Positions 19,949-41,841 of a DNA stretch of 47,873 bases are shown piece after piece. Position 1 is the first letter of the stretch; each line of letters begins with the position of its first letter. This DNA is from a bacterium (lineage in GTDB: Bacteria; Electryoneota; Electryoneia; Electryoneales; Electryoneaceae), in assembly GCA_019912845.1 (NCBI GenBank), contig JAIOHU010000187.1, positions 1 through 47,873 of the forward strand, in the 5' to 3' direction. The notes under the pieces are model-generated. The model was not told the DNA's origin, did not search any database, and worked only from the letters and a program-made list of their open reading frames with translations. Made by a program: the position numbers and the translations under genes.

Positions 19949-19960
19949 CCAAACGCTTTT

Positions 19961-20034
19961 GCAACCGTAGCTCAGATGGCTAGAGCGCCTGACTGTGGAT
20001 CAGGAGGTCCCCGGTTCAAGTCCGGGCGGTTGTA
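19961..20034 (+). tRNA. tRNA-His(GUG), non-canonical (no G-1, U72, A73)
   Basis: The cloverleaf is complete: acceptor GCAACCG (19961-19967) with CGGTTGT (20027-20033), D-arm GCTC/GAGC, anticodon stem CCTGA/TCAGG with loop CTGTGGA (anticodon GTG), and T-arm CCCGG-TTCAAGT-CCGGG. Base -1 is T, so the extra G-1 of normal tRNA-His is not encoded. Position 1-72 is G-U, the discriminator is A73 instead of C73, and the D-loop AGATGGCTA places U at 20a. This set corresponds to the Caulobacter-type tRNA-His identity. CCA is not encoded. Its partner HisRS is at 23759. Confidence 0.95.
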
Positions 20035-20045
20035 CAGATATAGAT

Positions 20046-20080
20046 GAGGATTTGGAATGAATTTCCAAGTCCTCTTTTTT
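20046..20080 (+). terminator. Rho-independent terminator after tRNA-His
   Basis: GAGGA (20046-20050) pairs with TCCTC (20070-20074), continued by TTGGAA/TTCCAA inside, followed by TTTTTT (20075-20080), 12 bases after the tRNA. Confidence 0.85.
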
Positions 20081-20108
20081 GTTCATTGTTCAGCTCAACT
20101 GCAATTTC

Positions 20109-21998
20109 TCAAGGTAAATATACCAGCTTTTTCGTTGCCAGATGTTGACCCTCCTTTGTCCAGCGAACCAGATAAACACCACTTGAGTGCGATTCACCCG
20201 GTGTCCAGGTCTGTTCGAATAGTCCAGCATGATGGGTGGTGAGTGACTTACTGGCGACTTCTTGTCCAGTGAGTGAATAAACAGTCCATTCGTAGTTTCC
20301 TGGGTATGCCAGATCGACGCGTAAGGTAACAGTGCCATTAAATGGATTGGGGAATGCTGAACGTAAGCGAAATCCTTTTACTGCTGCTGGTTGGGTATCA
20401 TCTCCAACTGAAGTTTCTCGTCCAGCAACTGTTCCATCCGAATTGATCTTATACAGGTACATCTTATTGCCTCGATCCTCAAACTGGAAGCTGGCGGCAA
20501 AGACAGCTCCACCATCGGTTGTTCGAACTGATGGACCAATGATATTCAGGTTTCCAGATTGTCGTGTGACCACCTGATCAAGTACTTCAACACTTTGCGC
20601 CGACCACTGATTAACAGCTAGTGAATCAAAATGAAATGTACGGATAAATTGATAATGAATAAAATTCTCACCTCTGTTCTGATGCCCCAAATAAACTGTT
20701 GTAAATTCTGTTCCATCTAAACTGGGTATTATTTCGAACTCATGGGCAAGTACGATATCAAGTGAGTCTATTTCAGCTATATATTCTTCATAATATGGTG
20801 AGCCATCAGGTTTAACGCGAAAGCATTTGGCTATATGATCCTGTCTACTCATATACATAGCAATCATACCGCCATCTGCGCACAGTTTCGGCCTGGATGG
20901 TGTGATTCCACCCTGATCAGATTCTATTCCCGATATACCCCATGGTAATCCCAAACCTGCATTAATCTTCTGATATCTACCATACTCTAGGTCCGTAAAG
21001 TATATAGCTCCTTCTACGTTAGGATGGGTTACGATCTGGCGGAATCTCGTCCCGATGGAATCCAGAATTGAAACAGGTTCTTCATTATCCAGCGTGCCAT
21101 CAGCCATTATGTGGTAACAGTTATACCGCGTTATTTCATCTTGATGTGGGTATATAAGATAGACGCCACCTTCACTATCCTCACCTAGAACTGGGTTTGC
21201 TCCCCTGTCTGAAAAATATTCTTCAAAGTACCACTCTCCTTGAATTTTACGTGTTCCATCAGCGTTGATTCCAGCTATCCACATTAAATCCTCATGAATT
21301 ACCTTTTCGTAGTACACCCATAGACCACCATTCCCATCAGGTACGACAGCGGGGAAATTACCACCCCAGGGTGTCCATTGGCTAGCGTGATGTTCATTAA
21401 CAACTGCACCAGTGGGACCAAAAAGATAATATCCCTCCAGGTCAAATGCCTGTGCATAAATACTCCACGGATATTCTTCATTGATGTTCGCAACCACACA
21501 TACTGTGATTCCGCCATCTGGACGTTGTACTGCCCCGAATAAATCCTGTGTACTTGATAATGAATCAGGGAGTGGTCTAAGTCCACCATCAGGAAAATAA
21601 GCGTACCCATCAACATCAAACCTTTGTACTCGAGTCTTGCCGGAAGTACCTGTGGGATCCTCATAAACCATCCAGAAACCACCATCATCTATCGGGAAAA
21701 ACTGACAAATACCACCGGCGTGATAACGGGATACTAACATCCCGCCATCAACCCATTGGGCATGGGAGGGTGATAGAATTGCGAGGGATAGAATCAGGGT
21801 AAAGAGTATGAAAACAAGTGTATATGAGTGAGAATTACTTGATAATTTGAATAGTCGCTCATGCGTAGCGTCATCCCAGCGCAGGCGGGGAACCAGACAA
21901 GAATAATGTTTTGGAGGTGTTTGCTGTTGAAATTGTTTGGTTGAATCAACAACTTGTCTTTTGACAGTAATCCACTTTTTGATGTCGTATCTCTTCAT
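20109..21998 (-). CDS. Secreted protein with T9SS-type sorting domain, propeller-like body
   Basis: Up to 629 aa. Residues from about 85 to 530 are a series of 'DGG...G...' strands (PDGGITVCVV, PDGNGGLWVYYE, EDSEGGVYLIY) resembling a beta-propeller. The sorting domain begins AFPNPFNGTVTLRV and ends KLVYLP. The hydrophobic signal segment (LVFILFTLILSLAILSPSHA) lies at about 57-77, preceded by an unusually long N-terminus from the ATG at 21996-21998. Codons for about residues 33-43 of that extension fall in a copy of the dispersed repeat (21869-21897). No standard start codon exists between the repeat and the signal segment. Either translation starts at 21998 with an over-long n-region, or the repeat insertion damaged the natural start and the gene is impaired. 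Body function unknown. Confidence 0.75.
   Translation of the reverse strand: MKRYDIKKWITVKRQVVDSTKQFQQQTPPKHYSCLVPRLRWDDATHERLFKLSSNSHSYTLVFILFTLILSLAILSPSHAQWVDGGMLVSRYHAGGICQFFPIDDGGFWMVYEDPTGTSGKTRVQRFDVDGYAYFPDGGLRPLPDSLSSTQDLFGAVQRPDGGITVCVVANINEEYPWSIYAQAFDLEGYYLFGPTGAVVNEHHASQWTPWGGNFPAVVPDGNGGLWVYYEKVIHEDLMWIAGINADGTRKIQGEWYFEEYFSDRGANPVLGEDSEGGVYLIYPHQDEITRYNCYHIMADGTLDNEEPVSILDSIGTRFRQIVTHPNVEGAIYFTDLEYGRYQKINAGLGLPWGISGIESDQGGITPSRPKLCADGGMIAMYMSRQDHIAKCFRVKPDGSPYYEEYIAEIDSLDIVLAHEFEIIPSLDGTEFTTVYLGHQNRGENFIHYQFIRTFHFDSLAVNQWSAQSVEVLDQVVTRQSGNLNIIGPSVRTTDGGAVFAASFQFEDRGNKMYLYKINSDGTVAGRETSVGDDTQPAAVKGFRLRSAFPNPFNGTVTLRVDLAYPGNYEWTVYSLTGQEVASKSLTTHHAGLFEQTWTPGESHSSGVYLVRWTKEGQHLATKKLVYLP
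21869..21897 (+). repeat. Divergent repeat copy inside a coding N-terminus
   Basis: CGTCATCCCAGCGCAGGCGG followed by GGAACCAGA is the typical arm order of the dispersed repeat. It lies within the 5' end of the minus-strand gene at 20109-21998, where it is translated. Confidence 0.65.
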
Positions 21999-22150
21999 AT
22001 AAGTGCTTCCATTCAGACCTCACCAGATATAAAATACACACCAATCCGTCACGTATTCAACTGAACTACAGAATTAACATGATGCCAGTTATGATCAATG
22101 ATAACCGCATGATATCACCCTGAAACAGCATGGCTTCGTCATCTATATCG

Positions 22151-22194
22151 TCTGGATTCTCGCATTCACGGGACTGACGAGTTCCGGGACTGCC
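22151..22194 (-). repeat. Divergent copy of the dispersed repeat
   Basis: On the minus strand it reads CTCGTCAGTCCCGTGAATGC, then GAGAATCCAGA, the same arm order as the other copies (CGTCAxxCC ... GxATCCAG). Confidence 0.5.
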
Positions 22195-22243
22195 TTCTCG
22201 TTGGGGGATGAGAAGTGTGAAGCTCGAAGCAATCCTCGAGTCA

Positions 22244-22270
22244 ACCCTCGTTCAAGTCCGGGTGGTGGTA
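22244..22270 (+). pseudogene. Decayed 3' end of tRNA-His
   Basis: The last 25 bases match the 3' end of the tRNA-His at 19961 in 21 positions, including the block TTCAAGTCCGGG. The T-stem and acceptor pairing are broken and there is no 5' half. An imperfect AAGGT/ACCTT hairpin followed by a T/G-rich run just downstream (about 22277-22315) may be the relic of its terminator. Possible old attachment-site scar. Confidence 0.55.
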
Positions 22271-22428
22271 TAACTTAAAGGTACTGGTTTTCCTGAACCT
22301 TTTGGTTTTGGTGTGGTATCTTATGGCATAAATCTTTTTGATTAATCGGGTCTAGAATTTCGATTTATTAATGCTTAATTTAATTCGAATCAGAGGATAC
22401 CCTATAACTTCAAACATAAGTGTAAAAA

Positions 22429-23220
22429 TTGAAAACTCCGGATATTACTTCATGGTCTCCCTCAAAAATCATCATGGTAGAAAAAAGTATTTCTGGTGCA
22501 GGAACCCATCCATTTGAGGTGTTAACAGATACTGGGAGGGGCGTAATCAAAGTTCCTGGAAACCCCCAGGGAACTGATTCATTGATCTCAGAATTTTTAG
22601 GAACAAGTCTTGCAAAGGCAATTGGATTACAAACATTTCCATTTTCTTTATTAAATCTTTCTGCTGGGGCATTCCAATTTTCAAGGGGGAGTGATTCAAA
22701 ACCTGGACATGGTTTTATTTCCAAGTTTGAAAAGGGGATTGTTTGGGATGGTAGCTCAAGAGTATTTGAGAGGCTGATAAATTTTGAGGATATCACAAAA
22801 CTACTTGTTTTGGACACATGGGTTTGTAATTTTGATAGATACAGCTCCGATATAGGAGGAAAAGAACACAGGAACTATGACAATGTGTTCTTTAAGCACC
22901 AATCAAGTGATCGACTGCAATTAATAGCAATGGATTTCTCTTTTGCATTAACGAGAAGTACACTGCTCGATGTACTTGTAGATGATACACACATCTACGG
23001 CAATTTCCCAGAATTTAAGCCATATTTTAATGATTCCGTTTGTTCGATCTGCTTGAAAACCATAAAAAACTTCAGTAGAATAAGTCTGGAAACGATTATC
23101 AATAAAATGCCAGTAGATTGGAACATTGATCAGGGATTAAAAGATAAAGTTGTTGAATTTTTGGAAGAAAGGGCAGCTTTTTTAGCTTCTCGACCGACCG
23201 AAATCTTCAAACCAGAATAG
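22429..23220 (+). CDS. HipA-like kinase family protein
   Basis: 263 aa, without the N-terminal subdomain of classical HipA. It fits the short 'HipA-like kinase' family. Seen: IKVPGNPQGTDSLISEFLGTSLAKAIGL (nucleotide-binding lobe with NPQG), LVLDTWVCNFDRYSSD (catalytic loop; the expected Asp/Asn region is DTWVCNFDR), YDNVFF and LIAMDFSFAL (metal-binding DFS in place of DFG). Classical HipA phosphorylates glutamyl-tRNA synthetase; the target of this short family is not known to me. The start is uncertain: TTG at 22429, or ATG at 22474 with no clear ribosome site. It is followed after 15 bases by a DUF3037 gene, a recurrent partner, so the two probably act together. Confidence 0.75.
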   Translation: MKTPDITSWSPSKIIMVEKSISGAGTHPFEVLTDTGRGVIKVPGNPQGTDSLISEFLGTSLAKAIGLQTFPFSLLNLSAGAFQFSRGSDSKPGHGFISKFEKGIVWDGSSRVFERLINFEDITKLLVLDTWVCNFDRYSSDIGGKEHRNYDNVFFKHQSSDRLQLIAMDFSFALTRSTLLDVLVDDTHIYGNFPEFKPYFNDSVCSICLKTIKNFSRISLETIINKMPVDWNIDQGLKDKVVEFLEERAAFLASRPTEIFKPE

Positions 23221-23235
23221 ATGTAGAAGGCAAAT

Positions 23236-23622
23236 ATGGAAAACGATTGTTTTTACTCGGTACTGCAATTTTGTCCTGATAGAGCCCGTCAGGAATCAGT
23301 AAATGTTGGTGTTGTAATATTGTGTCCAGCACAAAAGTTTTTGGGACTTAAAACTTCTGAATCAGTTGACAGGTTACGGCTATTGTTTTCCCATATAGAC
23401 TTCGATGAAAAGTTTTTCCAGTTACAATTGAACACAATGGAAAACAGGATTCGCAGTATGAGGGATGATGAGAAAACCAAAGCGGATTTTGAGCATTTTA
23501 TTGACTCAAGGGCACAGGATTTGGTATTTACAAAACTGAGAAGATTGTTCACTGAGACTCCAGTTTCGGAAGTAGATAAATTATTTGAAGAATTGGTCTT
23601 GGTACCTGCTAAGCTGCCGTAA
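23236..23622 (+). CDS. DUF3037 family protein
   Basis: 128 aa. The N-terminus FYSVLQFCPDRARQESVNVGVVILCP is the hallmark of DUF3037. The remainder is helical and charged. It starts at ATG 23236 behind AAGG and 15 bases after the HipA-like kinase gene, so the two form an operon with a terminator at 23673. The family's role is undefined. Its constant pairing with HipA-like kinases suggests a regulator, antitoxin-like partner or substrate, which is inference. Confidence 0.8.
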   Translation: MENDCFYSVLQFCPDRARQESVNVGVVILCPAQKFLGLKTSESVDRLRLLFSHIDFDEKFFQLQLNTMENRIRSMRDDEKTKADFEHFIDSRAQDLVFTKLRRLFTETPVSEVDKLFEELVLVPAKLP

Positions 23623-23672
23623 AATTCGCTTACAATTCAAAACTTACAACTACTTTGAGAGATAGAATAAGG

Positions 23673-23704
23673 ACGGGATGGTTTCCATCTCGTTTCTTTG
23701 TTTT
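23673..23704 (+). terminator. Rho-independent terminator after the HipA-like/DUF3037 pair
   Basis: ACGGGATGG (23673-23681) pairs with CCATCTCGT (23685-23693) through one G-U pair, followed by TTCTTTGTTTT. Confidence 0.75.
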
Positions 23705-23758
23705 ATCTTGTACTGGTTTTTACCTTAGTATCTAATCAGAACCAAATGGAGATAACTG

Positions 23759-25285
23759 ATGGCACGCACCAAACCACGTCTTTACCGTGGCTTTCGTGAT
23801 GTATTTGCAGCCGATGTGCTTGCACGTAATCGCATGATCAACACCGTACGTCAGGTGTATGAACGTTATGGGTTTGTTCCGCTGGAGACTCCGGCGATTG
23901 AATATGTCGAGGTGCTGGGGAAATTTCTGCCCGAAAGCACTCAACCGGATGGCGGGATATTTTCACTGCACAATGAGGATGAGGAGTGGATAGCGTTGCG
24001 GTATGATCTGACCGCTCCGTTATCACGTGTGGTTTCCATGTATCCCGAACTGCCACGTCCGTTCAGGCGTTATCAAGTGGGTCCTGTTTATCGTTTCGAA
24101 AAACCAGGTCCGGGAAGGTTCCGTGAATTTTACCAGTTCGATTTTGATTCGGTTGGTGTTCCTCGTGCGGATGCGGATGCAGAAATTTGCTGTGTTATGG
24201 CAGATACCCTCGAAGCGGTTGGCATCCAACGTGGCGACTATATTATCAAAGTGAATGACAGGAAAATCCTGAATGGTATCCTCGAACTTACCGGATATAA
24301 CAATCTGGACAAGATTGTAGAAGGTGATATTCCCATAGGTCCAGCCAAAGGTAAACCATACAGACGGCAGATCACCTCTGATGATATTTTCCGGGCAATT
24401 GATAAACTGGATAAAGTTGGAATCGAAGGGGTTGAATTGCTATTGACAGGTGGTCGTCTCGATGAATCAGGCGATTACACCCCCGGTTGCGAACTTTCCG
24501 ATGATGCTCTGGAGAAAATCCTGGGCTATCTCAACGCCAAAAAGGACAGCAGGAAGGAAGTATGTGATTTACTTGCTGAAACCATTGGCGACAGCGAGAT
24601 TGGCAAAGAAGGTGTTGAGGAGCTTCGTACCATCGACAGTCATCTCACAGCTCTAGGCTATGATGAATCACGCGTAATTTTCGATCCCACGGTTGTTCGT
24701 GGATTAAGCTACTATACTGGACCAGTTTTTGAAGGTGAACTTACCTTTGAAGTGACCGATGAGAGCGGAAATTCCAAAAGTTTCGGCAGCGTGTTTGGCG
24801 GGGGACGTTACGATGACCTGGTGAAACGGTTTACCGGTCAGATGATTCCTGCAACCGGAGCGAGTATTGGAGTGGATCGTCTATTGGCAGCCTTGAAACA
24901 CCTCGGCAGAATCGACACCAAATCTTCAACTGCGCACGTTCTTGTGACTGTGATGGACAAAAATTTCCGTACAGAATATCACAAATTGGCACACAGTTTA
25001 CGTCAGCAGGGGATAAACACCGAAGTTTATATGGCTGGCGGGAATATCGGGAAACAGTTGAAGTATGCTGATAAAGCGAATATTCCCATCGCAATTATTG
25101 CTGGTGATCGAGAATTTGAGGATGGAAAGCTACAGATAAAAGATTTATGGCTGGGACGGGATCTTTCGGAAGAAGTAGAAGACCGTGAAACATGGCGAAC
25201 AGAACGTCCCGCGCAATTTGAAATCAATGCTGATGAATTACTTGAAAATGTGAAGACTATTCTGAATCAATACAAACTTCTGTAG
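23759..25285 (+). CDS. hisS: Histidyl-tRNA synthetase, divergent (alphaproteobacterial-like) type
   Basis: 508 aa, longer than the about 420-aa common bacterial form. Class II motif 1 region YGFVPLETPAIEY, then RYDLTAPLSR. Motif 2 reads RRYQVGPVYRFEKPGPGRFREFYQFDFDSVG, where canonical enzymes have GPMFRxERPQxGRxRQFHQ. The HisA-specific motif is VVRGLSYYTGPVFEGEL rather than RGLDYYxRTVFE. Motif 3 is ATGASIGVDRLLAAL. The C-terminal anticodon-binding domain runs from about 400. From memory, the EKPGPGR and YYTGPVFE forms are those of the divergent HisRS of alphaproteobacteria such as Caulobacter that charge a tRNA-His lacking G-1. This agrees with the tRNA-His at 19961. ATG at 23759 follows GGAGA. 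Confidence 0.95.
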   Translation: MARTKPRLYRGFRDVFAADVLARNRMINTVRQVYERYGFVPLETPAIEYVEVLGKFLPESTQPDGGIFSLHNEDEEWIALRYDLTAPLSRVVSMYPELPRPFRRYQVGPVYRFEKPGPGRFREFYQFDFDSVGVPRADADAEICCVMADTLEAVGIQRGDYIIKVNDRKILNGILELTGYNNLDKIVEGDIPIGPAKGKPYRRQITSDDIFRAIDKLDKVGIEGVELLLTGGRLDESGDYTPGCELSDDALEKILGYLNAKKDSRKEVCDLLAETIGDSEIGKEGVEELRTIDSHLTALGYDESRVIFDPTVVRGLSYYTGPVFEGELTFEVTDESGNSKSFGSVFGGGRYDDLVKRFTGQMIPATGASIGVDRLLAALKHLGRIDTKSSTAHVLVTVMDKNFRTEYHKLAHSLRQQGINTEVYMAGGNIGKQLKYADKANIPIAIIAGDREFEDGKLQIKDLWLGRDLSEEVEDRETWRTERPAQFEINADELLENVKTILNQYKLL

Positions 25286-25473: not shown

Positions 25474-25509
25474 TTTGGAAGAGTACTAATAATATTGAGG
25501 GGAATAGAG

Positions 25510-27705
25510 ATGGGCAACGATCATCATACTATCACAATTGGGCAGTTGGATATTGAGGGTCTTTATGGCGAACTCTCGCAAGCTGTCCAAAATGATAACA
25601 CAACATTCAGCGAATACAGCAATCAGACGCAAATTGGCTTGGATCAACTTCGTAAACAGACTAACTGGTTACGACTGAAAGATTTTGCCTCGATCACCCG
25701 AACTGATGAATCTGGTCATTTTGCTGAAATTGTTGTGGATAAAAGCCTGCTTGCAGAAAATGAGAACAATCCTGTGTTCAGAAGTTATCAGGAAGTGCTT
25801 GGTTATATACGTGATAATAAGAATATCTACGGCGTAAATACCGGATTTGGATCGAACCGGAAATTCCGACTTTCAAATGAAGCAGATACATTGAAGTTAT
25901 CCGCGAACATCCTCTATTCTCACGCGACGGGAGTAGGAAAACCATTTGCAGTGGATGTTGTACGTGGGATGATGTTGCTCCGTCTGAAAACCTTCGCTCA
26001 AGGGGTTTCTGGTGTTCATCCAAGACTACTGATACTCTTGCGTGATATGCTGAACAAGGGAGTGATTCCCTACATACCCGAAAAAGGTAGTGTGGGGTCA
26101 AGCGGTGATTTGTGCTCACTTTCGCATCTGTTCCTCGTGTTGCTGGGGAAGGGTAAGGCATGGCTGATTCCCAATGATTGTGAGGAGATGAAATACACTG
26201 GGGGCGAGGAGATACGTGATCCTCGTGGAATGACCTGGTATGAAGAAAATGAGCGTTTGGATCGACGTAAAACTGGCGATGTCAGCGTACTTCTGGATGG
26301 CAGGCAGGCGATGGAGCTTGCAGGGATCAAACCCCTAATGGTTGACGAACTCTTTCCCAAAGCGGGTCTTGCCCTTACCAACGGTGCAACCTCATCCGCT
26401 GCTATGCTTGCCCTCTCAACCTATGACGCAATTCAACTTTACCACATCGCCAATTTATCCGGTAGTTTAACTCACCAGGCGCAATTCGGGCATATGAGAG
26501 CATTTGAGTTGCCAGTTCATCTAATACGTCGGCAGAAAGGACAGCTCCTTACCGCTTTTGAACTGCAGAAATTTTTGAAGGATAGCACACTGACAGGACG
26601 TTGCTCTCTCATCGCCGAATCGCAGGATGACTACAGCATCCGAGCAATGCCTCAGGTTCACGGTGCAGTTTACAACGCCATTGAGCATGTGACCTTTGTT
26701 GCTGAAGCGGAGATTAATGCGGCTACTGATAATCCTCTCTTCTTCTCTGATCTGTTAAAAAATAAAGAAGAATTCTGGCATCAATTTGGAGTGGGTGAAA
26801 AAGCTGCCAGCGATCCCCTTGCCAGTAAAAATGCAAAATCCACACTTGAGACCACGCACTGCTCAGCAGCAAATTTCCATGGAGAACCTGTTGCCACAGC
26901 GGCTGACTATCTCAAACTGGCAGTGGCGGAACTGGCAAGTATTTCAGAACGTCGAATCCAACTTCTTCTCGATTCCAATCACAATCGCGGCTTACCTGCA
27001 AATCTCACCCTTGGTCAAGCTGGACTACATAGTGGATTTATGATCGCTCAATATGCAGCGGCGGGATTGGTTTCAGAGAATAAAGTGCTCGCGCATCCCT
27101 CTTCAGTCGACTCGATACCGACCTCTTCGAATGCGGAAGATCATGTTGCCATGGCAACAAATGCGGCTCGTCATCTGCGAATTGTTGTTCAAAATGTTGC
27201 TCATGTCCTGGCGATTGAACTGATCTGTGGCTTGCAGGCGTGTGATATTCGTACACGATATGCAGGGGGATATGTCGAACGGTCTACTTTGGCGAGATCG
27301 CACCAACTCGTCAACAAGACGAATAAAGAAGATCAACTTCCTATTACTCAATATGTGCAGAAATATATGGGTGAAGATAATCCACGGATGATGTTCCCGA
27401 ATTTTGTGGAAGAGGGTGATGTATCGGCTGCAGAAATACTGGATGTTTCATATCTGGTTTTGAGCCGAAGTGCCCAGCTCACCCGAAGCTATATCAGGGA
27501 TAACCTGCATATTCCTTTTATTATTCATGATGGTGAAATCGGTGAGGAGGAAAGGGCGGGTTCCGGCCCACAACAATTTTCGCCGACTGAAGCTAGTTTC
27601 AAGGAAGTTGAACCAACCTGGATGATTGAGACTGTCGCCAGAGCAATTAGAAATGGCTCTATTCTGAAAGTGCTCGGAAACGAGTGTGTGGATGAAAATC
27701 TTTGA
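25510..27705 (+). CDS. Aromatic amino acid ammonia-lyase/aminomutase family protein (HAL/PAL type, MIO enzyme)
   Basis: 731 aa, well above the about 510 aa of histidine ammonia-lyase. Family signatures from this start: YGVNTGFGS (catalytic Tyr, about 107), GSVGSSGDLCSLSHLF (prosthetic-group site, about 193-208), GLALTNGAT, QDDYSIRAMPQVHGA and EINAATDNPL. The MIO cofactor forms from an internal tripeptide, normally Ala-Ser-Gly; here it is Ser-Ser-Gly (about 197-199). Extra length comes from an N-terminal extension, an insertion after the MIO site and a C-terminal extension of about 80 residues. Substrate cannot be fixed from sequence: histidine, phenylalanine or tyrosine, or an aminomutase reaction, are possible. 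No other hut genes are adjacent. I prefer ATG 25510 (behind GAGGGGAA) to the TTG at 25495. Confidence 0.85.
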   Translation: MGNDHHTITIGQLDIEGLYGELSQAVQNDNTTFSEYSNQTQIGLDQLRKQTNWLRLKDFASITRTDESGHFAEIVVDKSLLAENENNPVFRSYQEVLGYIRDNKNIYGVNTGFGSNRKFRLSNEADTLKLSANILYSHATGVGKPFAVDVVRGMMLLRLKTFAQGVSGVHPRLLILLRDMLNKGVIPYIPEKGSVGSSGDLCSLSHLFLVLLGKGKAWLIPNDCEEMKYTGGEEIRDPRGMTWYEENERLDRRKTGDVSVLLDGRQAMELAGIKPLMVDELFPKAGLALTNGATSSAAMLALSTYDAIQLYHIANLSGSLTHQAQFGHMRAFELPVHLIRRQKGQLLTAFELQKFLKDSTLTGRCSLIAESQDDYSIRAMPQVHGAVYNAIEHVTFVAEAEINAATDNPLFFSDLLKNKEEFWHQFGVGEKAASDPLASKNAKSTLETTHCSAANFHGEPVATAADYLKLAVAELASISERRIQLLLDSNHNRGLPANLTLGQAGLHSGFMIAQYAAAGLVSENKVLAHPSSVDSIPTSSNAEDHVAMATNAARHLRIVVQNVAHVLAIELICGLQACDIRTRYAGGYVERSTLARSHQLVNKTNKEDQLPITQYVQKYMGEDNPRMMFPNFVEEGDVSAAEILDVSYLVLSRSAQLTRSYIRDNLHIPFIIHDGEIGEEERAGSGPQQFSPTEASFKEVEPTWMIETVARAIRNGSILKVLGNECVDENL

Positions 27706-33894: not shown

Positions 33895-33978
<84 letters not shown>

Positions 33979-34016
33979 CAATGACTTACAAACTATAATT
34001 CCTTCCAGAACTGAAA

Positions 34017-34037
34017 ATGGTACACTGGTGGTACACT
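34017..34037 (+). repeat. Terminal direct repeat, left copy
   Basis: Two GGTACACT units with 11-base phasing. A near-identical copy (20 of 21 bases) lies at 41653-41673, 115 bases before attR. Presence at both ends suggests integrase arm-type binding sites. Confidence 0.65.
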
Positions 34038-34085
34038 AAATTTCAATAAATCCCTAAAACAATAATCTTCTAAAATCCTGCGAAT

Positions 34086-34110
34086 CACCCTGAAAATGGG
34101 TGTTTTTTAT
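34086..34110 (+). terminator. Rho-independent terminator inside the left end
   Basis: CACCC - TGAAAAT - GGGTG followed by TTTTTTATTTTA. It could stop tRNA-Arg transcription from running into the integrase gene. Confidence 0.65.
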
Positions 34111-34269
34111 TTTATGGTGTACCGTGAATGTACCATATCGACTATGGATGGTTGTTAAATACAGTAATAACAAATAGATGTAACAGTTTCTCCGGTGATT
34201 AATAATCCGTTGTTGACTTTTGCTGTGCGTTATTGTACCTTGTTGAAGCACACACACAAGGAGGCAATC

Positions 34270-35313
34270 ATGGCAGTAATTCAAGAGCGTACAAAAAGTG
34301 ATGGCAAAACCAGTTACAGGGTATTGGTACGGATAAAAGGATATCCTGCACAATCAGCAACTTTTAAACGTATAACGGATGCCAAGAGCTGGGCAGTGCA
34401 AACTGAAGCGGATATACGTCAAGGCAGGCATTTCAGGACGTATGAAGCGAAAAAGCACACCCTGGAAGATGCAATCAAGCGTTACAATGAAACCTATGTA
34501 GACTCCCTTAAAACCAGCAAAGATAGAAAGCGTCAACTAGGGTGGTGGAATAAACAAATCGGTAAACACACCCTGGCAGAGGTCACTCCTGCACTAATCA
34601 CCCAAAAGAGAGACGAGTTATCAAAAGGGAATCGTTCTGCCTCAACGGTCAACCGCTATCTGGCAGCACTAAGCCACCTATTCACTGTTATCGCGAAAGA
34701 GTGGCAATGGGTTGAAGCGAATCCGATGAACCAGGTTTCCAAGCTGAAAGAACCCAGGGGTAGAGTAAGGTTTCTTGATAAAGATGAACGTGAAAGGCTA
34801 TTGGAAGCCTGTAAGAGTAGCAAGAATTCAGACTTATACCTTGCAGTCAGACTTGCCCTTGCAACTGGTGCAAGACGTTCTGAAATATGGAATCTGGAGT
34901 GGAGCCAAATAGACTTTGATCGTGAAACGATAATCCTGCATGAGACAAAAAACAATGATCGAAGAAAGCTCCATATATCCGGTGAGGTATACGAAATGCT
35001 TTTAGAAAAAAGTAAAATTAGAAGATTAGATACCAACCGATTATTCCCAGGTAAACTTGATCCCACCAAACCTTTCGATTTTACACAACCCTGGAGAACT
35101 GCACTCAAACAGGCAAAGATTGAAGACTTTAAGTGGCATGATCTAAGGCACACAACGGCAAGTTATCTGGCAATGAATGGTGCAACACCTGGGGAGATTG
35201 CTGGAGCCCTGGGACACCGTACACTGCAAATGGTGAAGCGTTACTCCCACCTGTCTGAGGATCATATCTCGAGTGTTCTTCAATCCATGAATCAGAAAGT
35301 GTTTGGAGGTTAA
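34270..35313 (+). CDS. int: Tyrosine-type site-specific integrase
   Basis: 347 aa. An N-terminal Arm-like domain (about 1-60, TSYRVLVRIKGYPAQSATF), then a SAM-like core-binding domain (62-155), and a catalytic domain from about 165. Catalytic residues: R202 (TGARRSEI), K227 (HETKNNDR), H290 and R293 (WHDLRHTTASYLAMNGA), H316 (ALGHRT) and nucleophile Y325 (KRYSHL); all six are present, so it should be active. ATG at 34270 behind AAGGAGG is clearly the start, not the GTG/ATT codons upstream. It integrates the element into tRNA-Arg. Confidence 0.95.
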   Translation: MAVIQERTKSDGKTSYRVLVRIKGYPAQSATFKRITDAKSWAVQTEADIRQGRHFRTYEAKKHTLEDAIKRYNETYVDSLKTSKDRKRQLGWWNKQIGKHTLAEVTPALITQKRDELSKGNRSASTVNRYLAALSHLFTVIAKEWQWVEANPMNQVSKLKEPRGRVRFLDKDERERLLEACKSSKNSDLYLAVRLALATGARRSEIWNLEWSQIDFDRETIILHETKNNDRRKLHISGEVYEMLLEKSKIRRLDTNRLFPGKLDPTKPFDFTQPWRTALKQAKIEDFKWHDLRHTTASYLAMNGATPGEIAGALGHRTLQMVKRYSHLSEDHISSVLQSMNQKVFGG

Positions 35314-35315
35314 AC

Positions 35316-36011
35316 ATGGATGAATATGAAGCAATGAATATTGAAGAATACCGAGAAATGGTTATTCAGGTAGAGTACTATCTTGGTTTTGCAGAAAAGG
35401 GCGCAATCGATGCCTACGCAAATCTAATAAGATATGCTGCTGAATTTATTAGGAAAGACTACCCAATTCCAAAGATATTGAAAGACTACATTGTACCAGC
35501 TTTATATCGCATCTTTGAAAGAACAGAATTGAAGACTATTATTGTTGAAAACTTGGACAGCATTAAGGGAGCAAAGAATCAAAAGAAACTGGCAGAAAGG
35601 GACAATAACAATTTGAATATTAGGGATTACCAGACTGAAATCCAGTGGCTGGAGGAGATTCTTGAAAGGGATAAAAGCATTATAAGAACAATGGGTAGTG
35701 TTGAAAAAATACTCGGCATAGTAGCTGGTAAAGGAAAGAATTTAATAACCATTAATAGAATAAATAGTAAAGAATCAAGCGATTGGATGATAGTAGCTCA
35801 AATTATATCGCTGGTTGAAAAAGGGAATTCACTGGCTGATGCGACTAATACAGTTTCAGAACAATGGAATAGAGGATGGGACATCACGATGAAACTATAT
35901 TATGACAACCATAAACGCATACGTGAACAAATAGATCAGGCGAAAGAGATTCAACACCAACGTGAGTTAAACCGAAAACTAATCGAGAATAACGCCAAGG
36001 AGCAGAATTAA
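35316..36011 (+). CDS. Unknown protein of the integrative element, 231 aa
   Basis: Starts 2 bases after the integrase stop behind GGAGG, so it is co-translated with int. It is highly charged and helical; residues about 60-125 look coiled-coil prone (LAERDNNNLNIRDYQTEIQWLEEILERDK), as does the C-terminus (HKRIREQIDQAKEIQHQRELNRKL). The part TINRINSKESSDWMIVAQIISLVEKGNSLADATNTVSEQW resembles a sigma-like or helix-turn-helix segment only loosely. No signal peptide or membrane helix. I do not recognise the family. Tight coupling to int suggests a recombination or regulation role. Confidence 0.7.
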   Translation: MDEYEAMNIEEYREMVIQVEYYLGFAEKGAIDAYANLIRYAAEFIRKDYPIPKILKDYIVPALYRIFERTELKTIIVENLDSIKGAKNQKKLAERDNNNLNIRDYQTEIQWLEEILERDKSIIRTMGSVEKILGIVAGKGKNLITINRINSKESSDWMIVAQIISLVEKGNSLADATNTVSEQWNRGWDITMKLYYDNHKRIREQIDQAKEIQHQRELNRKLIENNAKEQN

Positions 36012-36105
36012 ACCTACCTATTTAATTCCGTGATATGCTCGCCTTCAATTGGTATTATTAGCCCCATGTAGTGATTAAGTGGTCAAATCAACATGGAGGT
36101 TCAAA

Positions 36106-36318
36106 ATGCAGCAACAAGTTCAAGATTCACCATTGTTGACGGTTAAACAGTTCTGTGAACGCTACCCCTTCATTTCGCAGGGTGGCTTGCGCTGGAAGAT
36201 TTTTAACTGTCAAGAGAACGGTTTCCAGGACGCTTTTTCCTGGATTGGAAAAAGAGTATACGTGAAACCGGAAGCATTCTTTCGGATCGTTGAAGATCAA
36301 AACGGACGGAGGAACTAA
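36106..36318 (+). CDS. Excisionase-like/AlpA-like small DNA-binding protein
   Basis: 70 aa. LLTVKQFCERYPFISQGGLRWKIFNC resembles the winged-helix start of MerR-type excisionases (LTVKQFxxxxP.....LR..I), followed by KRVYVKPEAFFRIVE, the usual wing and final helix of such proteins. In integrative elements this protein directs excision and/or activates replication genes. ATG at 36106 follows GGAGG (36095-36099), so I chose it over the GTG at 36079. The next gene overlaps its stop by one base. Confidence 0.8.
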   Translation: MQQQVQDSPLLTVKQFCERYPFISQGGLRWKIFNCQENGFQDAFSWIGKRVYVKPEAFFRIVEDQNGRRN

Positions 36319-36641
36319 TGCAGTCAAAAAAGAAAGCCGCCCTGGATGCTACGAACATCCAGAACGGCACAAAAAAAAGGCGCAAACCTGAACACAAATG
36401 TATTCAACAAGTATCTGAATCGCAAGTTCTAACCAGGCTTGCTCTCATATTAAATCCACTGATTATACCTATCAACGAATTAACTCCCCTTGAGGTAGAA
36501 GCTACTGTGAAACAATGGCAGGAAGAGCGTGACTATTGGATAGAACAAACAAACCAGGCAATAGAAAATGCCTTGTATGTCAAACGTCAACAACTACACT
36601 GGAAAAAAACCGGAATAGTTCCGGGAGGTGAGGTGCAATGA
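36318..36641 (+). CDS. Unknown small protein preceding the primase, 107 aa
   Basis: ATG overlaps the previous TAA by one base (TAATG), and its own TGA overlaps the next ATG (ATGA), which shows a translationally coupled operon. The N-terminus is very basic (QSKKKAALDATNIQNGTKKRRKPEHK), the rest is helical with a run of acidic and aromatic residues. It could be a primase accessory or DNA-binding factor, but no family is recognised. Confidence 0.7.
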   Translation: MQSKKKAALDATNIQNGTKKRRKPEHKCIQQVSESQVLTRLALILNPLIIPINELTPLEVEATVKQWQEERDYWIEQTNQAIENALYVKRQQLHWKKTGIVPGGEVQ

Positions 36642-39037
36642 TAGACAAACTTATCAGATACGCTCTCCAGTATAGTGAACTCCTGGGATGGAAAGTATTT
36701 CCAGTAAAGGAGGATAAAAAGCCATGCACACCACACGGTTTCAAAGATGCAGTATCAAATCCTCAAGGCATTGAAATTCTATTCACCCGATACCCTGAAG
36801 CTGGGGGTATCGGAGTGGCAACCGGAAAAGAATCTGGCATCTTTGTAGTTGATGTTGATGGTAAACAGGGTAAGGAATCACTGAAAAACTTGCTAAAGGA
36901 AAATGGTGAACTTCCTCATACAGTCATGCAGTACACTGGTTCAGGTTGGTATCATTTATTTTTCAAATATCCGGTTGATACACGGATTAAAAATAGTGCA
37001 AGTCAGATTGCAACAGGAATCGATATTCGTGGAGAGGGTGGCTATGTTGTTGTACCACCCTCAAAACACCCCTCCGGTAAAACTTACGGATGGAGGGAAT
37101 TCTACAGCCCTGAAGAGCATGAAATCGCACCTGCACCCGGTTGGTTGATTCAACTTTGTATTACGCCTAAAAAAAGGAAAATAGATTCGTACTCCCAAAA
37201 CACAACCGGATCAACTCCCTATGGTGAAGCTGCCCTATTAAATCAACTTGAACACCTGAAATCAGTACAACCGGGAAGCCGAAACCATGCACTGAATAAG
37301 GTTGCATTTTCACTCGGTCAACTGGTAGCTGGTGGAGAGTTGGATGAATCCAGAGTTGCACAAGCATTGCAGATTGCCGGAAGTGAAATAGGGTTGGAAA
37401 ATCAAGAGGTCGATAAAACCATTCGCTCTGGTATTGAATCGGGGAAAGGTCAACCGAAATCTGCTCCAGACAAAAAACAGTATGTTTCAAGGGATAAGAA
37501 TACACACCAGAATATCACTGTTTTACCCTGGGAAGAACCGATCCCCTTAATACGTGAACTACCACCAGCCAGACAGTTTCCAGTACACGCTTTGCCCGGG
37601 TTGATCGGGGAGACTGTTGAAGCACTGGTTGATATGGTTCAAGTACCTGCTTCCCTTGCTGCCGGATCAGTTCTCGCGGCGAGTAGTTATGCAACCCAGG
37701 CACTCGCAGATATTGTGCTTCCTTTTGGTGGGAACTCCACCAGACCGCTCTCTCTGTACTTCATATCTATAGCCGCAAGCAGTGACAGGAAAAGTACAGT
37801 TGACAGTATCGTTCTGGAGGGTATCCTGCAACACCAGAAAGCACTTTATCGCAAGTATGAATCAGAATTGGAAGCCTATAAGACAGAGGAATCACTCTTC
37901 TCTAAAATACATCAACAAATCCTGAACGAATCGGGGAAAAAATCTAAGGATGCTGGTGAATCAGTATTGGTTGAAGGAAGGCAAAAAATTGAAGAGCTTG
38001 GAGATAGACCATTGCCACCACTAGAACCATTTTTGCTAATACCAGAACCAACCATGGAGGGTATGACTCTGTTATTTGCCAGAGGGCAACCATCGCTTGC
38101 GTTGTTCAGCAATGAAGGTGCGTTGATGTTATTCGGTCACTCAATGCAGAAGGAAAAGAGGTTGAATACTGCAGGGATGCTATCAACCCTCTGGGATGGT
38201 CAAGCGATTAGTAGAATTCGTGCGGGTGATATAAATATGCTACTCCCAGGCAGGCGGTTAGCAATTCATTTGATGGTACAACCCAGGATAGGGAGAACAT
38301 TGTTTTCTGATTCTGAATTGGAAGATCAAGGTTTTCTTTCACGTCTCCTTGTTGTTGCACCAGAGAGTAAAGCAGGAAGCCGGGAGTTTCGAGACCCACA
38401 AGCGATAGAAGAACACACGGTTGCGAGGTTTTCAGAACGTATAAGAGAACTTTTACAATCAGATTATCCCCTTGAGGAAGGCAAAAGGAATGAGTTGAAA
38501 CCAAGACGATTGACCTTTACCAGTGAAGCGAAACCTATCTGGGTGAATTTCAGTAATGAAATAGAAGGGCAAATCGGGAAAGGTGGTGAGTATGAATCTA
38601 TCAAAGGTTTTGCCGGGAAACTGGCGGAGCAGGCGGCAAGGATTGCAGGAGTCTTTTCAGTGATGCAAAACCAGCATTGTGAACGGATAGAGGGTGAAAC
38701 CATGCAACAGGCTTGTACTATTGCAAGGTTCTATGGTGGTGAAGCGTTACGGTTGTTTCAAGCTGGCAAGGTTAACCCACACCTTGAAGAGTGTGAAAAG
38801 GTATTGGATTGGATTTTCTCTTCCTGGGATGAAGGTTACATATCTCCACCAGATATTTACCAACTCGCTCCTGGAAGTGTACGTGATAGGCGCAAAGCAA
38901 AAAAGATACTGGCAACACTGGAGAATCATGCCTGGATCGTAAGAGAACCAGAGGGGGCAGTTACCAGGGGAATAAAACGAAAGGAAGCATACAGAATCCG
39001 GAGAGAATTCTGGATGGATAAAAATCGAAGGAATTAA
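36638..39037 (+). CDS. Bifunctional primase-polymerase with DUF3987 (YfjI-like) domain
   Basis: 799 aa. The N-terminal prim-pol domain of archaeo-eukaryotic primase type has YSELLGWKVFPV, the metal-binding FVVDVDG (D72, D74), GSGWYHLFF (H106) and GIDIRGEGGYVVVPPS. The second half (about 305-790) matches the DUF3987/YfjI family, often the helicase-like partner in satellites and plasmids: LPGLIGETVEALVDMVQVP, IAASSDRKSTVD (degenerate P-loop), ALFSNEGALMLF, LSTLWDGQAISRIRAGD and LMVQPRIG. Together these form a one-protein initiator. It overlaps the upstream gene by 4 bases and is followed at once by an inverted repeat array, a likely origin. Confidence 0.9.
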   Translation: MIDKLIRYALQYSELLGWKVFPVKEDKKPCTPHGFKDAVSNPQGIEILFTRYPEAGGIGVATGKESGIFVVDVDGKQGKESLKNLLKENGELPHTVMQYTGSGWYHLFFKYPVDTRIKNSASQIATGIDIRGEGGYVVVPPSKHPSGKTYGWREFYSPEEHEIAPAPGWLIQLCITPKKRKIDSYSQNTTGSTPYGEAALLNQLEHLKSVQPGSRNHALNKVAFSLGQLVAGGELDESRVAQALQIAGSEIGLENQEVDKTIRSGIESGKGQPKSAPDKKQYVSRDKNTHQNITVLPWEEPIPLIRELPPARQFPVHALPGLIGETVEALVDMVQVPASLAAGSVLAASSYATQALADIVLPFGGNSTRPLSLYFISIAASSDRKSTVDSIVLEGILQHQKALYRKYESELEAYKTEESLFSKIHQQILNESGKKSKDAGESVLVEGRQKIEELGDRPLPPLEPFLLIPEPTMEGMTLLFARGQPSLALFSNEGALMLFGHSMQKEKRLNTAGMLSTLWDGQAISRIRAGDINMLLPGRRLAIHLMVQPRIGRTLFSDSELEDQGFLSRLLVVAPESKAGSREFRDPQAIEEHTVARFSERIRELLQSDYPLEEGKRNELKPRRLTFTSEAKPIWVNFSNEIEGQIGKGGEYESIKGFAGKLAEQAARIAGVFSVMQNQHCERIEGETMQQACTIARFYGGEALRLFQAGKVNPHLEECEKVLDWIFSSWDEGYISPPDIYQLAPGSVRDRRKAKKILATLENHAWIVREPEGAVTRGIKRKEAYRIRREFWMDKNRRN

Positions 39038-39046
39038 ATCCTGCAC

Positions 39047-39110
39047 CTGCTAATCTTGCTAAAGTTGCTAATCCAGTGACGAGAATTAGCAGGATTAGCA
39101 GAATTAGCAG
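39047..39110. repeat. Inverted array of 9-bp TTAGCA repeats (candidate origin or terminator)
   Basis: Left arm 39047-39073 holds three tandem TGCTAA units at 9-bp spacing; right arm 39083-39110 holds three tandem TTAGCA units at the same spacing in the opposite direction. The 9-base spacer is CAGTGACGA. The arms match in 21 of 27 positions. It starts 10 bases after the primase-polymerase stop. Possible iteron-type binding site for the replication protein, or a long transcript hairpin. Confidence 0.7.
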
Positions 39111-39179
39111 GGTGTGAACTTTGAATCTTGAAATAATTGAACATATATTGTGTATTCGGAAGAAATGAAGGGATTAAAT

Positions 39180-39791
39180 ATGTTGCCAAAATATTGTGGA
39201 CTTCTAAACTCTTCTATTCTCGTCATACTCTTTTTAGGTTGTAGTCTGGGTGAAGGTACTTACCATGGTACAGGCGAGGATGAAGGTGAGTTGATGTGGT
39301 TTAGAATAGTTAAAAAAAAGAATGTTGGAAATGAGGTTGAATATACATGGAATGCACGATTTACAAACAGAGCAACTGATACGCTTCTTTTTAAAAAAAA
39401 ATCAATGGAGATAGCTACTCTTTTTCCTAATTTTGCTGTGAATGCATATAACCATATGAACGAAAGAATTTCACCCTCTGGAAGTTCATATTCAGTTATT
39501 GCGTGTAAATCGGGTACCCATAGATTTCAATTTAATCAGAATTTAATATTGAATGACTCAAATCTTTCAGAGACTCAAAAAACAGCTTTAATGCAATCTG
39601 TTTCCAATCTAAGCAATTCAGAGTTGTATTACGTCATACTACCAGACCAATATATCGATATTGTCGGGTTGGTAAATTATAAAGAGAACGTGATTAGCTA
39701 TATAGACCATTTCGAACCAAGCTGGAATGTTGAGCGTAGTTCAGAATTAAAAAGTAGGTGGCACTCCTATTCTCGATTAGTTGTGCACTAA
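39180..39791 (+). CDS. Putative lipoprotein of the integrative element
   Basis: About 203 aa. The N-terminus MLPKYCGLLNSSILVILFLGC ends in a lipobox (LFLGC), after which the protein is beta-rich and hydrophilic. I chose ATG 39180, which has AAGGGA at a 6-base spacing; an earlier in-frame ATG (39165) and GTG (39150) exist. No domain is recognised. The DNA is noticeably more A+T rich than its neighbours, suggesting that it is cargo acquired separately. A surface lipoprotein could serve as an exclusion or fitness factor, but nothing shows this. Confidence 0.65.
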   Translation: MLPKYCGLLNSSILVILFLGCSLGEGTYHGTGEDEGELMWFRIVKKKNVGNEVEYTWNARFTNRATDTLLFKKKSMEIATLFPNFAVNAYNHMNERISPSGSSYSVIACKSGTHRFQFNQNLILNDSNLSETQKTALMQSVSNLSNSELYYVILPDQYIDIVGLVNYKENVISYIDHFEPSWNVERSSELKSRWHSYSRLVVH

Positions 39792-39877
39792 TTCAGCTAC
39801 TGACTAAAAACCTTATGCATATTCATTATAGTGCCAAATTGAAGTATTAAAGATTAGAGCAATGTAAGAGGTATAGA

Positions 39878-40330
39878 TTGCCTGCTAAAACAGAAAAAAA
39901 ACAGGGGAGAAAAACTCAAAATAGATTCCAAGCTGGAGAATCGGGGAATCCTAATGGTAGACCGAGTGGTTCACGGAATAAAGCGTCTCTAGCGGTCGAG
40001 GAGCTACTTGAAGGTGAACTGGAAGGATTAACACGGAAAGCCATTGAACTCGCTCTGGAGGGCAATATACAGGCTTTACGCCTATGCTTAGACCGTCTCT
40101 GTCCACCAAAGAAAGACCGGAAGGTTTCGTTTGCCATTCCTGAAGTGCAGACCACCAGCGATGTCGTAAAAGCACTCTCAGCAATCACCAAAGCGGTTTC
40201 TCTGGGTGAACTCACTACCCAGGAAGGACAGGCGGTTGCGTCTATCATGGAGCACTACCGGAAAGCGATTGAACTGGAAGAGGTGGAGAAACGGTTGACC
40301 GAACTGGAGAACCATATCAAATCAAACTAA
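39878..40330 (+). CDS. DUF5681 family protein
   Basis: 150 aa. It begins at TTG 39878 behind AAGAGG. The sequence FQAGESGNPNGRPSGSRNKAS is the DUF5681 signature, a Gly/Asn/Pro/Arg-rich DNA-binding-like N-terminus, followed by ELLEGELEGLTRKAIELALEGNIQALRLCLDRLCPP. In phages this domain occurs beside packaging genes and is thought to act like a terminase small subunit. No large terminase is present here. The C-terminal coiled coil (HYRKAIELEEVEKRLTELENHI) may give oligomerisation. Confidence 0.85.
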   Translation: MPAKTEKKQGRKTQNRFQAGESGNPNGRPSGSRNKASLAVEELLEGELEGLTRKAIELALEGNIQALRLCLDRLCPPKKDRKVSFAIPEVQTTSDVVKALSAITKAVSLGELTTQEGQAVASIMEHYRKAIELEEVEKRLTELENHIKSN

Positions 40331-40345
40331 CCGGAGGAAGGGAGA

Positions 40346-40633
40346 GTGCATCGATTGATAAACCGTCTAAGAAAATTGGAAACACGAAAAAGAGAAGATA
40401 TACCAATTCGCTTTGTACGTGAGGAAATATCGTATGAGGAAGCGGTTGAACGGTATCCGGGTGAATTGATCTTTCACGGTGATGAAAATGATCTTTCAGG
40501 GGAAGATAAGAAGTTGTTCGAATCACTGAAAACTTGCTCTGGGTTTAGAAAAGAATACTACAGGATATGGGTTGAATTCATGCATCTATCACCAGAAGAA
40601 ATGGAAGCATACCTTGTAAGCAAAGGGATATGA
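40346..40633 (+). CDS. Small unknown protein of the element, 95 aa
   Basis: GTG start at 40346, 15 bases after the DUF5681 stop, behind GGAGGAAGGGAG. The sequence is charged, without cysteines beyond one, signal or membrane helix, and contains ISYEEAVERYPGELIFHGD. The next gene has a loosely similar EEYRQLVEDYPEL stretch, so the two may be distant paralogs. It resembles small phage accessory proteins but no family is recognised. Confidence 0.6.
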   Translation: MHRLINRLRKLETRKREDIPIRFVREEISYEEAVERYPGELIFHGDENDLSGEDKKLFESLKTCSGFRKEYYRIWVEFMHLSPEEMEAYLVSKGI

Positions 40634-40648
40634 TATTAGAGGCAACAT

Positions 40649-40873
40649 ATGAAATACATGAAACGTATTGACAGGGTTAAAAACAGGATTCATATTGAAG
40701 TCTCCAGGCGAGTGGTTTCGGTTGAATCTGAAGAATACAGACAACTGGTGGAGGATTATCCCGAATTGTCTACTCGCTCTGCATCATATTTCAAACAATT
40801 GAATATCCTCCTAGTTGCTACCGATGTAGATAAACAGGCAATGGAAGAAGCAATACATTCAGCATACAGGTAA
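40649..40873 (+). CDS. Small unknown protein of the element, 74 aa
   Basis: ATG at 40649 follows AGAGG and lies 15 bases after the previous stop, so it is the last of three co-directional genes (39878, 40346, 40649). The N-terminal half is basic (MKYMKRIDRVKNRIHIEVSRR), the rest mixed. No family recognised. Confidence 0.6.
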   Translation: MKYMKRIDRVKNRIHIEVSRRVVSVESEEYRQLVEDYPELSTRSASYFKQLNILLVATDVDKQAMEEAIHSAYR

Positions 40874-40880
40874 AGCTATA

Positions 40881-41564
40881 TTAAGGTAGCTTGTGAAGAA
40901 CCTTCCCTTCAGGATCAAATAAAGTCAGACTGGAAACACTTCTTGATATGGTACTGAAATCACTTTTATCTAAAAGTTCAATGGAGCCAATAGTTACTCT
41001 ATTCCGACCGTTCTCATCATTTAATTTAATGTAGTTATTATATTCATCTCCTTTAAGTGTACTTCCCATCGTCAATGGGTATGAACTACTATTACTATAA
41101 CTAATAAAATATCCTTCTCCTTCCTCTGTGTTAGATACGTCAATATACAAGTTACTTGAAAGAGTCCCGGATATAGAATGAACACCTTCACTGTCAGCTT
41201 CAACCTTAAAATATGGGTATAAATCTATGTTTGGATTCGAACTAATGCCTTTTCTGGGAGAAACTAATGATAATATGCATGAACTTGTATTATATTCTAT
41301 TTCAAATCTTCTCTTTCCCTGATCAAACATAGATATGTTATTTGAAGTTAAAACCAAACCTGTTTCTAATTCATCAAGGTCTTTATCAAATATTGCATCT
41401 GATATAAGAATCTTCTTTGCAATTATCACACTGGAAATCAGTGTATCCTGTGTTGAAATCCCTGCTTCTGCTTCAGAAGGTGTATATTCTACTACTTTAC
41501 TGAGTAAAGTGATTATTATAGTAATCAGAATTACTCCCCAAAGTGGTACAGGTTTTGATAGCAT
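40881..41564 (-). CDS. Unknown membrane-anchored protein of the element
   Basis: 227 aa, transcribed toward the DUF5681 group. One N-terminal membrane helix (PLWGVILITIIITLLSKVV), probably an uncleaved anchor, then a Ser/Thr/Asn-rich beta-type domain with many short strands (KRRFEIEYNTSSCILSLVSP, SISGTLSSNLYIDVSN). It resembles the FG-GAP-free beta repeats of surface proteins only in composition. The gene is more A+T rich than chromosomal neighbours. Function unknown. ATG at 41562-41564 behind GAGG. Confidence 0.6.
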   Translation of the reverse strand: MLSKPVPLWGVILITIIITLLSKVVEYTPSEAEAGISTQDTLISSVIIAKKILISDAIFDKDLDELETGLVLTSNNISMFDQGKRRFEIEYNTSSCILSLVSPRKGISSNPNIDLYPYFKVEADSEGVHSISGTLSSNLYIDVSNTEEGEGYFISYSNSSSYPLTMGSTLKGDEYNNYIKLNDENGRNRVTIGSIELLDKSDFSTISRSVSSLTLFDPEGKVLHKLP

Positions 41565-41652
41565 TTTCCATTACCTCATCTTTGTAACTGCAATTCAAGC
41601 CATTTTTTTTGATAGAATCGAATTAATAATAGGTGCTGAACTGAATTAGAAT

Positions 41653-41673
41653 ATGGTACACTGATGGTACACT
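41653..41673 (+). repeat. Terminal direct repeat, right copy
   Basis: ATGGTACACTGATGGTACACT; one base differs from the left copy at 34017-34037. The following AATAAATCCCT block (about 41691-41701) is also shared with the left end (about 34045-34055). Confidence 0.65.
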
Positions 41674-41787
41674 CGAATTCAAAAAGATGCAATAAATCCC
41701 TGAAAATACCAATAAAGATTTAGGCGTAACTCCAGAGATAACTTATAGTTGATTGTTGTAAGGTGTTGATAGTATTAGGGTTAGAGT

Positions 41788-41841
41788 GATTCCTAATCCG
41801 TAGGTCGCGCGTTCGAATCGCGCCGGGGGTACTAATAAAAA
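41788..41841 (+). repeat. attR of the integrative element (tRNA-Arg 3' half)
   Basis: 54 bases identical to the tRNA-Arg 3' portion at 33925-33978. The 5' half of the tRNA is absent, so it is not a gene. Marks the right boundary. Confidence 0.92.

Follow-up and report, generated by a model that had tools for sequence, protein, structure and literature searches.

Does the histidine tRNA gene of contig JAIOHU010000187.1 (assembly GCA_019912845.1), together with the histidyl-tRNA synthetase (HisRS) gene hisS that follows it, form the kind of pair that works without G-1 in Caulobacter, and if so, how did a bacterium of the phylum Electryoneota acquire it? Among bacteria, the literature places this pair only in some alphaproteobacteria; the Caulobacter HisRS needs no G-1, recognizing its tRNA through the anticodon, A73 and U72, and is orthogonal to the G-1/C73 pair (PMC9976931, PMC3875453). 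A preliminary description of the window, by which we mean the whole stretch of 47,873 nucleotides analysed, had proposed that an FCB-type genome carries the same co-evolved pair, by transfer or by independent origin. Our analysis makes it very probable that the host charges histidine independently of G-1:C73, with a pair that replaced the ordinary one of its family by transfer from a lineage resembling another Electryoneota family (f3), likely as linked genes that were later split. What is new is the distribution of the pair, its transfer and its linkage; the charging principle is not.

The tRNA-His gene and its synthetase

The features that define the pair are these:

19961..20034, + strand: tRNA-His(GUG), sole copy in the genome, with T at -1 (19960), G1 (19961) paired with U72 (20033), and A73 (20034); from ARAGORN, Rfam RF00005 (68.5 bits) and the sequence.
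23759..25285, + strand: hisS, a histidyl-tRNA synthetase of the G-1-independent type, 508 aa, sole copy; above the TIGR00442 cut-off, and in a 100/100 tree clade with RRCH alphaproteobacteria.
24107..24109, + strand: codon of motif-2 loop residue Gly117, which is Gln in ordinary HisRS; Gly in 35 of 35 clade members, Gln in 27 of 28 sequences outside, the remaining one being human, with Ala.
24440..24487, + strand: about 12 extra, clade-specific residues in the insertion domain, GRxDxSG (LLTGGRLDESGDYTPG); R233, D235, S237 and G238 in 35 of 35 clade members, a gap in 24 of 28 outsiders.

The tRNA gene is as first described: base 19960 is T, so that G-1 is not encoded, and the acceptor stem, GCAACCG/CGGTTGT, opens with a G1-U72 wobble and ends in A73. 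(ARAGORN calls the gene one base longer than 19961-20034.) It is the only one of 44 tRNAs above the Rfam cut-off in this genome to carry a GUG anticodon; most of the 44 were read one by one, and the seven left unread are 82-89 nt, the size of Leu, Ser and Tyr tRNAs with a long variable arm. U20a, which had been offered as further evidence, was dropped because it is present in the tRNA-His of ordinary relatives as well, for example G011, G016 and G003. A search for a Thg1-like enzyme through PF04446, with PF14413 not searched, returned no match in the 92% complete host genome or in 30 relatives, while the control, Methanosarcina acetivorans, was positive.

The single HisRS match in the host genome scores 368.9 bits against TIGR00442, the HisRS equivalog model (cut-off 286.75), and has the class II core and the anticodon domain (PF13393, PF03129). 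The search for a second tRNA-His or HisRS that the preliminary description had suggested thus found none. Both motifs it had singled out, EKPGPGRFREF and YYTGPVFE, are read in the protein; the latter fails as a marker, as YYTGPVFE or PIFE also occurs in ordinary HisRS from this phylum. Judged from sequence, the diagnostic marks are instead Gly117 in motif 2 of the enzyme and, on the tRNA side, the -1 base, U72 and A73. The Gly/Gln site, Gly123 in PMC3937112, is tied to recognition of G-1:C73 (PMC3937112). A C-terminal stretch is also common to the clade HisRS and missing elsewhere in the same alignment (35 clade sequences, 28 outside). The AlphaFold model of the window HisRS has a predicted local distance difference test (pLDDT) score of 85.9, falling below 50 in the motif-2 loop (115-118), and is therefore silent on contacts with A73.

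The window pair thus resembles that of the RRCH alphaproteobacteria (Caulobacter type) in the absence of an encoded G-1, in G1-U72, A73 and the motif-2 Gly, in belonging to one HisRS clade, and in sharing the same insertion. It differs in its host and in the placement of the tRNA gene near hisS. With ordinary bacterial HisRS (TIGR00442), including that of the window's own family, it shares the enzyme family, the reaction and the single copy per genome, but an ordinary pair has a motif-2 Gln, no GRxDxSG insertion and a G-1/C73 tRNA, none of which is found here. The tRNA-His of trypanosomes and Acanthamoeba also functions without G-1 (PMC9976931, PMC6471195); these systems are eukaryotic, and we liken them from their published description only.

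Ancestry of the synthetase and distribution of the pair

Electryoneota is assigned by NCBI to the FCB group, as the preliminary description had judged of the host, and is represented in our collection by 39 genomes, including Candidatus Hatepunaea meridiana (G026). Three HisRS trees of 49 to 60 sequences were built, the largest including ordinary HisRS from Bacteroides, E. coli and Sphingomonas. In all three, the window HisRS falls in a clade with 100/100 support together with sequences from Rhodobacterales/Hyphomicrobiales, Planctomycetota, Zixibacteria and four other Electryoneota. Outside it lie the ordinary enzymes of the host's own family and phylum and, in the largest tree, those of Bacteroides, E. 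coli and Sphingomonas. A tree with alphaproteobacterial and FCB sequences therefore does not place this HisRS with ordinary forms, and the proposal of a shared co-evolved pair is upheld; of the two origins offered for it, descent in common with transfer stands and independent origin does not. Within the phylum, the window HisRS groups inside the pair formed by SKW228 and G013, both of family f3 (100/93 and 100/96). Members of the window's own family (f1) have ordinary HisRS and, in G003, an ordinary tRNA-His too; this combination points to transfer into the window lineage.

The alphaproteobacterial sequences form one clade, whose nearest relatives are the planctomycetes G171 and G186, with moderate support (94/85, 82/83). 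A clade joining alphaproteobacterial and human HisRS was rejected by the approximately unbiased (AU) test (p 0.0002), a result that rests on one partial human sequence and is weak for eukaryotes generally.

Does the tRNA type follow the HisRS type? The tRNA-His search pattern left positions -1, 72 and 73 free, except that for alphaproteobacterial records 73 was limited to A, C or T. U72/A73 was found in 27 of 27 clade genomes or records with a tRNA-His: five Electryoneota, 15 Planctomycetota, two Zixibacteria, two alphaproteobacterial records, and three further planctomycetes reached through tRNA searches. Three more clade genomes (G036, G040, G052) had no tRNA-His under a strict pattern and were left out of the counts. 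At least 15 Electryoneota with a Gln-type HisRS and a tRNA-His found all have G-1/C73, so that there is no exception on either side (Fisher p, taken without regard to relatedness, 6e-5 inside the phylum and 1e-11 for the full set). The -1 base of the U72/A73 type varies (T 38, C 12, A 5, G 5), whereas G occupies the position in 46 of 48 tRNAs of the C72/C73 type, the exceptions being one misread locus and one candidate phyla radiation (CPR) genome. An unconstrained -1 indicates that the requirement for G-1 is gone, as expected if the HisRS no longer reads it.

A U72/A73 tRNA-His is carried by 5 of 39 Electryoneota, 15 of 392 Planctomycetota and 58 of the 86 Zixibacteria with a pattern match, the last count being a tally of listed matches in which HisRS type was read directly in two genomes and taken from the tRNA in the others. 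Among sampled Zixibacteria it is the commoner type. Because the type is common there and present in Planctomycetota, the window represents one case of a wider distribution. No report of the pair in Planctomycetota or Zixibacteria was found in the open-access literature.

Some variants were seen along the way. Two Zixibacteria (G480, G509) have tRNA-His with U72/U73 instead of U72/A73, and Phycisphaerales SJ659 (G049, L113) has a truncated second tRNA-His about 8.6 kb from the intact copy. Three CPR genomes, L096 (C24_bin60), L097 (Falkowbacteria) and L099 (Vogelbacteria), encode a tRNA-His without G-1 directly downstream of a Gln-type hisS; it is U-1/A73 with G1-C72 in L096 and L097 and C-1/C73 in L099, an arrangement that differs from both known types.

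Gene order around hisS

In G013, G026 and the planctomycetes G186, G171 and G185, hisS is preceded directly, by about 70 to 160 nt, by a tRNA-His gene on the same strand; the pair could thus move as one unit. The C73-type loci that were read have no hisS in the fetched flank, except for a CPR genome with hisS and then tRNA-His. The window keeps the order tRNA-His, then hisS, with 3.7 kb between them, occupied by the first three of the following features; the fourth lies beyond hisS:

20109..21998, - strand: gene with a type IX secretion system (T9SS) sorting tail (PF18962).
22245..22270, + strand: direct repeat D2, a degenerate, att-like scar that matches the 3' end of tRNA-His at 22 of 26 bases.
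22429..23622, + strand: gene pair for a HipA_2-like kinase and a DUF3037 protein (PF20613, PF11236).
25495..27705, + strand: histidine-ammonia-lyase-like gene (MIO-type aromatic amino acid lyase with an SSG triad), downstream of hisS (PF00221, E=6e-139).

The inner 21 bases of the D2 copy contain two mismatches, where none is expected in shuffles at three mismatches. Going by sequence, the simplest reading of the gap would be an insertion at the tRNA-His 3' end that split the tRNA from hisS. No integrase was found in the stretch between the two genes. Elsewhere in the window (33895-41828), an integrative element sits at tRNA-Arg(CCT), bounded on each side by 22 bp identical to the 3' region of the tRNA (33944-33965, 41807-41828) and encoding a tyrosine integrase (34195-35313) and a Prim-Pol/DUF3987 protein (36638-39037).

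The histidine ammonia-lyase (HAL)-like gene directly follows hisS in eight clade loci from three phyla (Electryoneota, Zixibacteria and Planctomycetota): the window, SKW228, both named Zixibacteria, and the planctomycetes B33T1L10, GoSlDig27, OFTM357 and G171 (the seven outside the window are loci L074, L080, L081, L084, L087, L091 and L279). Around the phylum's ordinary hisS loci, no such gene was seen in flanks of up to 1.5 kb. In the Paroceanicella, Cereibacter and Ruegeria loci, by contrast, hisZ/hisG stand beside hisS; the window hisS has neither, and has the lyase instead. The product scores below the NCBIfam cut-offs for histidine ammonia-lyase (PRK09367, 478.8 against 524; hutH, 452.9 against 539), and its MIO triad, in the window as in most copies, is SSG instead of ASG. 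That the lyase links histidine supply to breakdown is a guess. We found no report in the open-access literature of a link between hisS and histidine ammonia-lyase.

Probable replacement of the resident pair

RNase P would cut this tRNA-His to G1, G-1 being neither encoded nor added, and the HisRS, with Gly in place of the Gln reported to contact G-1:C73, would read the anticodon, A73 and U72. By analogy with Caulobacter, we infer that these charging rules hold for the window pair and that it is orthogonal to the ordinary one. Horizontal transfer, from a donor in the same phylum resembling f3, would have displaced the G-1/C73 pair that is ordinary for the host's family. Most probably tRNA-His and hisS arrived together as a linked unit, to be parted by the later insertion.

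A separate loss of G-1 and change of HisRS in Electryoneota and in alphaproteobacteria might seem natural for hosts in such distant phyla, the more so as the pair is patchy within Electryoneota, but the HisRS is monophyletic with that of the alphaproteobacteria, at the end of a long stem, and Gly117, the GRxDxSG insertion and the C-terminal stretch are all shared; the trees reject independent origin, and we allow it next to no probability. Hardly more credible is a contig misbinned from another organism. The genome is a 4.65 Mb draft in 297 contigs and the window HisRS does group with another family, yet reported contamination is 0.29%, and the tetranucleotide composition of the contig correlates with its own genome at 0.93, compared with 0.73 against G008 and 0.34 against G013, for which the samples compared were short. 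Its PBP1C, moreover, is closest to family f1 (54%, 51%) and far from the f3 genomes (32-34%). Composition and PBP1C together argue for transfer, and misbinning was rejected on them.

Addition of G-1 by an unrecognised enzyme, which would leave only the gene looking unusual, has a precedent in eukaryotic tRNA-His, where A73 occurs with an added G-1 (PMC6471195). The negative PF04446 search, the Gly that replaces the G-1:C73-contacting Gln, and the fact that the same combination functions without G-1 in Caulobacter (PMC9976931) make it very unlikely. A more serious competitor is replacement in two steps, with hisS acquired by itself and the tRNA-His already present mutating afterwards to fit it. 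The two genes do lie apart in many members of the clade, and so they do at every alphaproteobacterial hisS locus examined. But a resident G-1/C73 tRNA would have been poorly charged by an orthogonal HisRS on arrival, given the orthogonality known from Caulobacter (PMC3875453), linked tRNA-hisS units occur in two phyla, and the body of the window tRNA resembles those of other clade members, though a tree of such short molecules would not be decisive. We regard two steps as improbable, at perhaps a quarter of our belief.

Several points weigh against transfer of a linked, G-1-independent pair. At 92% completeness, the draft could lack a further tRNA-His or HisRS gene that the organism has. Pairing of U-1 with A73 is conceivable, and RNase P might then keep U-1. 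The PBP1C of G026, in family f2, reaches 52% identity as well, so that this marker rules out f3 and alone cannot point to f1. Linkage is seen in only some clade members and beside none of the alphaproteobacterial hisS loci examined, so that co-transfer is no more than plausible in each case. Finally, no charging biochemistry was found in the literature for bacterial members outside the alphaproteobacteria.

A bolder possibility, which we hold only tentatively and think rather doubtful, is that tRNA-His, hisS and the HAL-like gene form a self-sufficient transferable unit able to replace a resident pair in one step, and that the type arose in Planctomycetota or FCB-type bacteria and from there gave rise to the alphaproteobacterial pair, without a eukaryotic donor. 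One-step replacement would be possible because the incoming enzyme and tRNA recognize one another but neither of their resident counterparts.

Occurrence of the pair in three further phyla, tracking a single HisRS clade, indicates that the identity rules by which a synthetase and its tRNA are matched have moved between phyla. An A73 tRNA-His is accordingly unusable as a marker of alphaproteobacteria alone, and code engineering could draw on the clade for numerous candidate orthogonal pairs for histidine. The linkage of tRNA-His to hisS hints at a route by which such a pair can invade.

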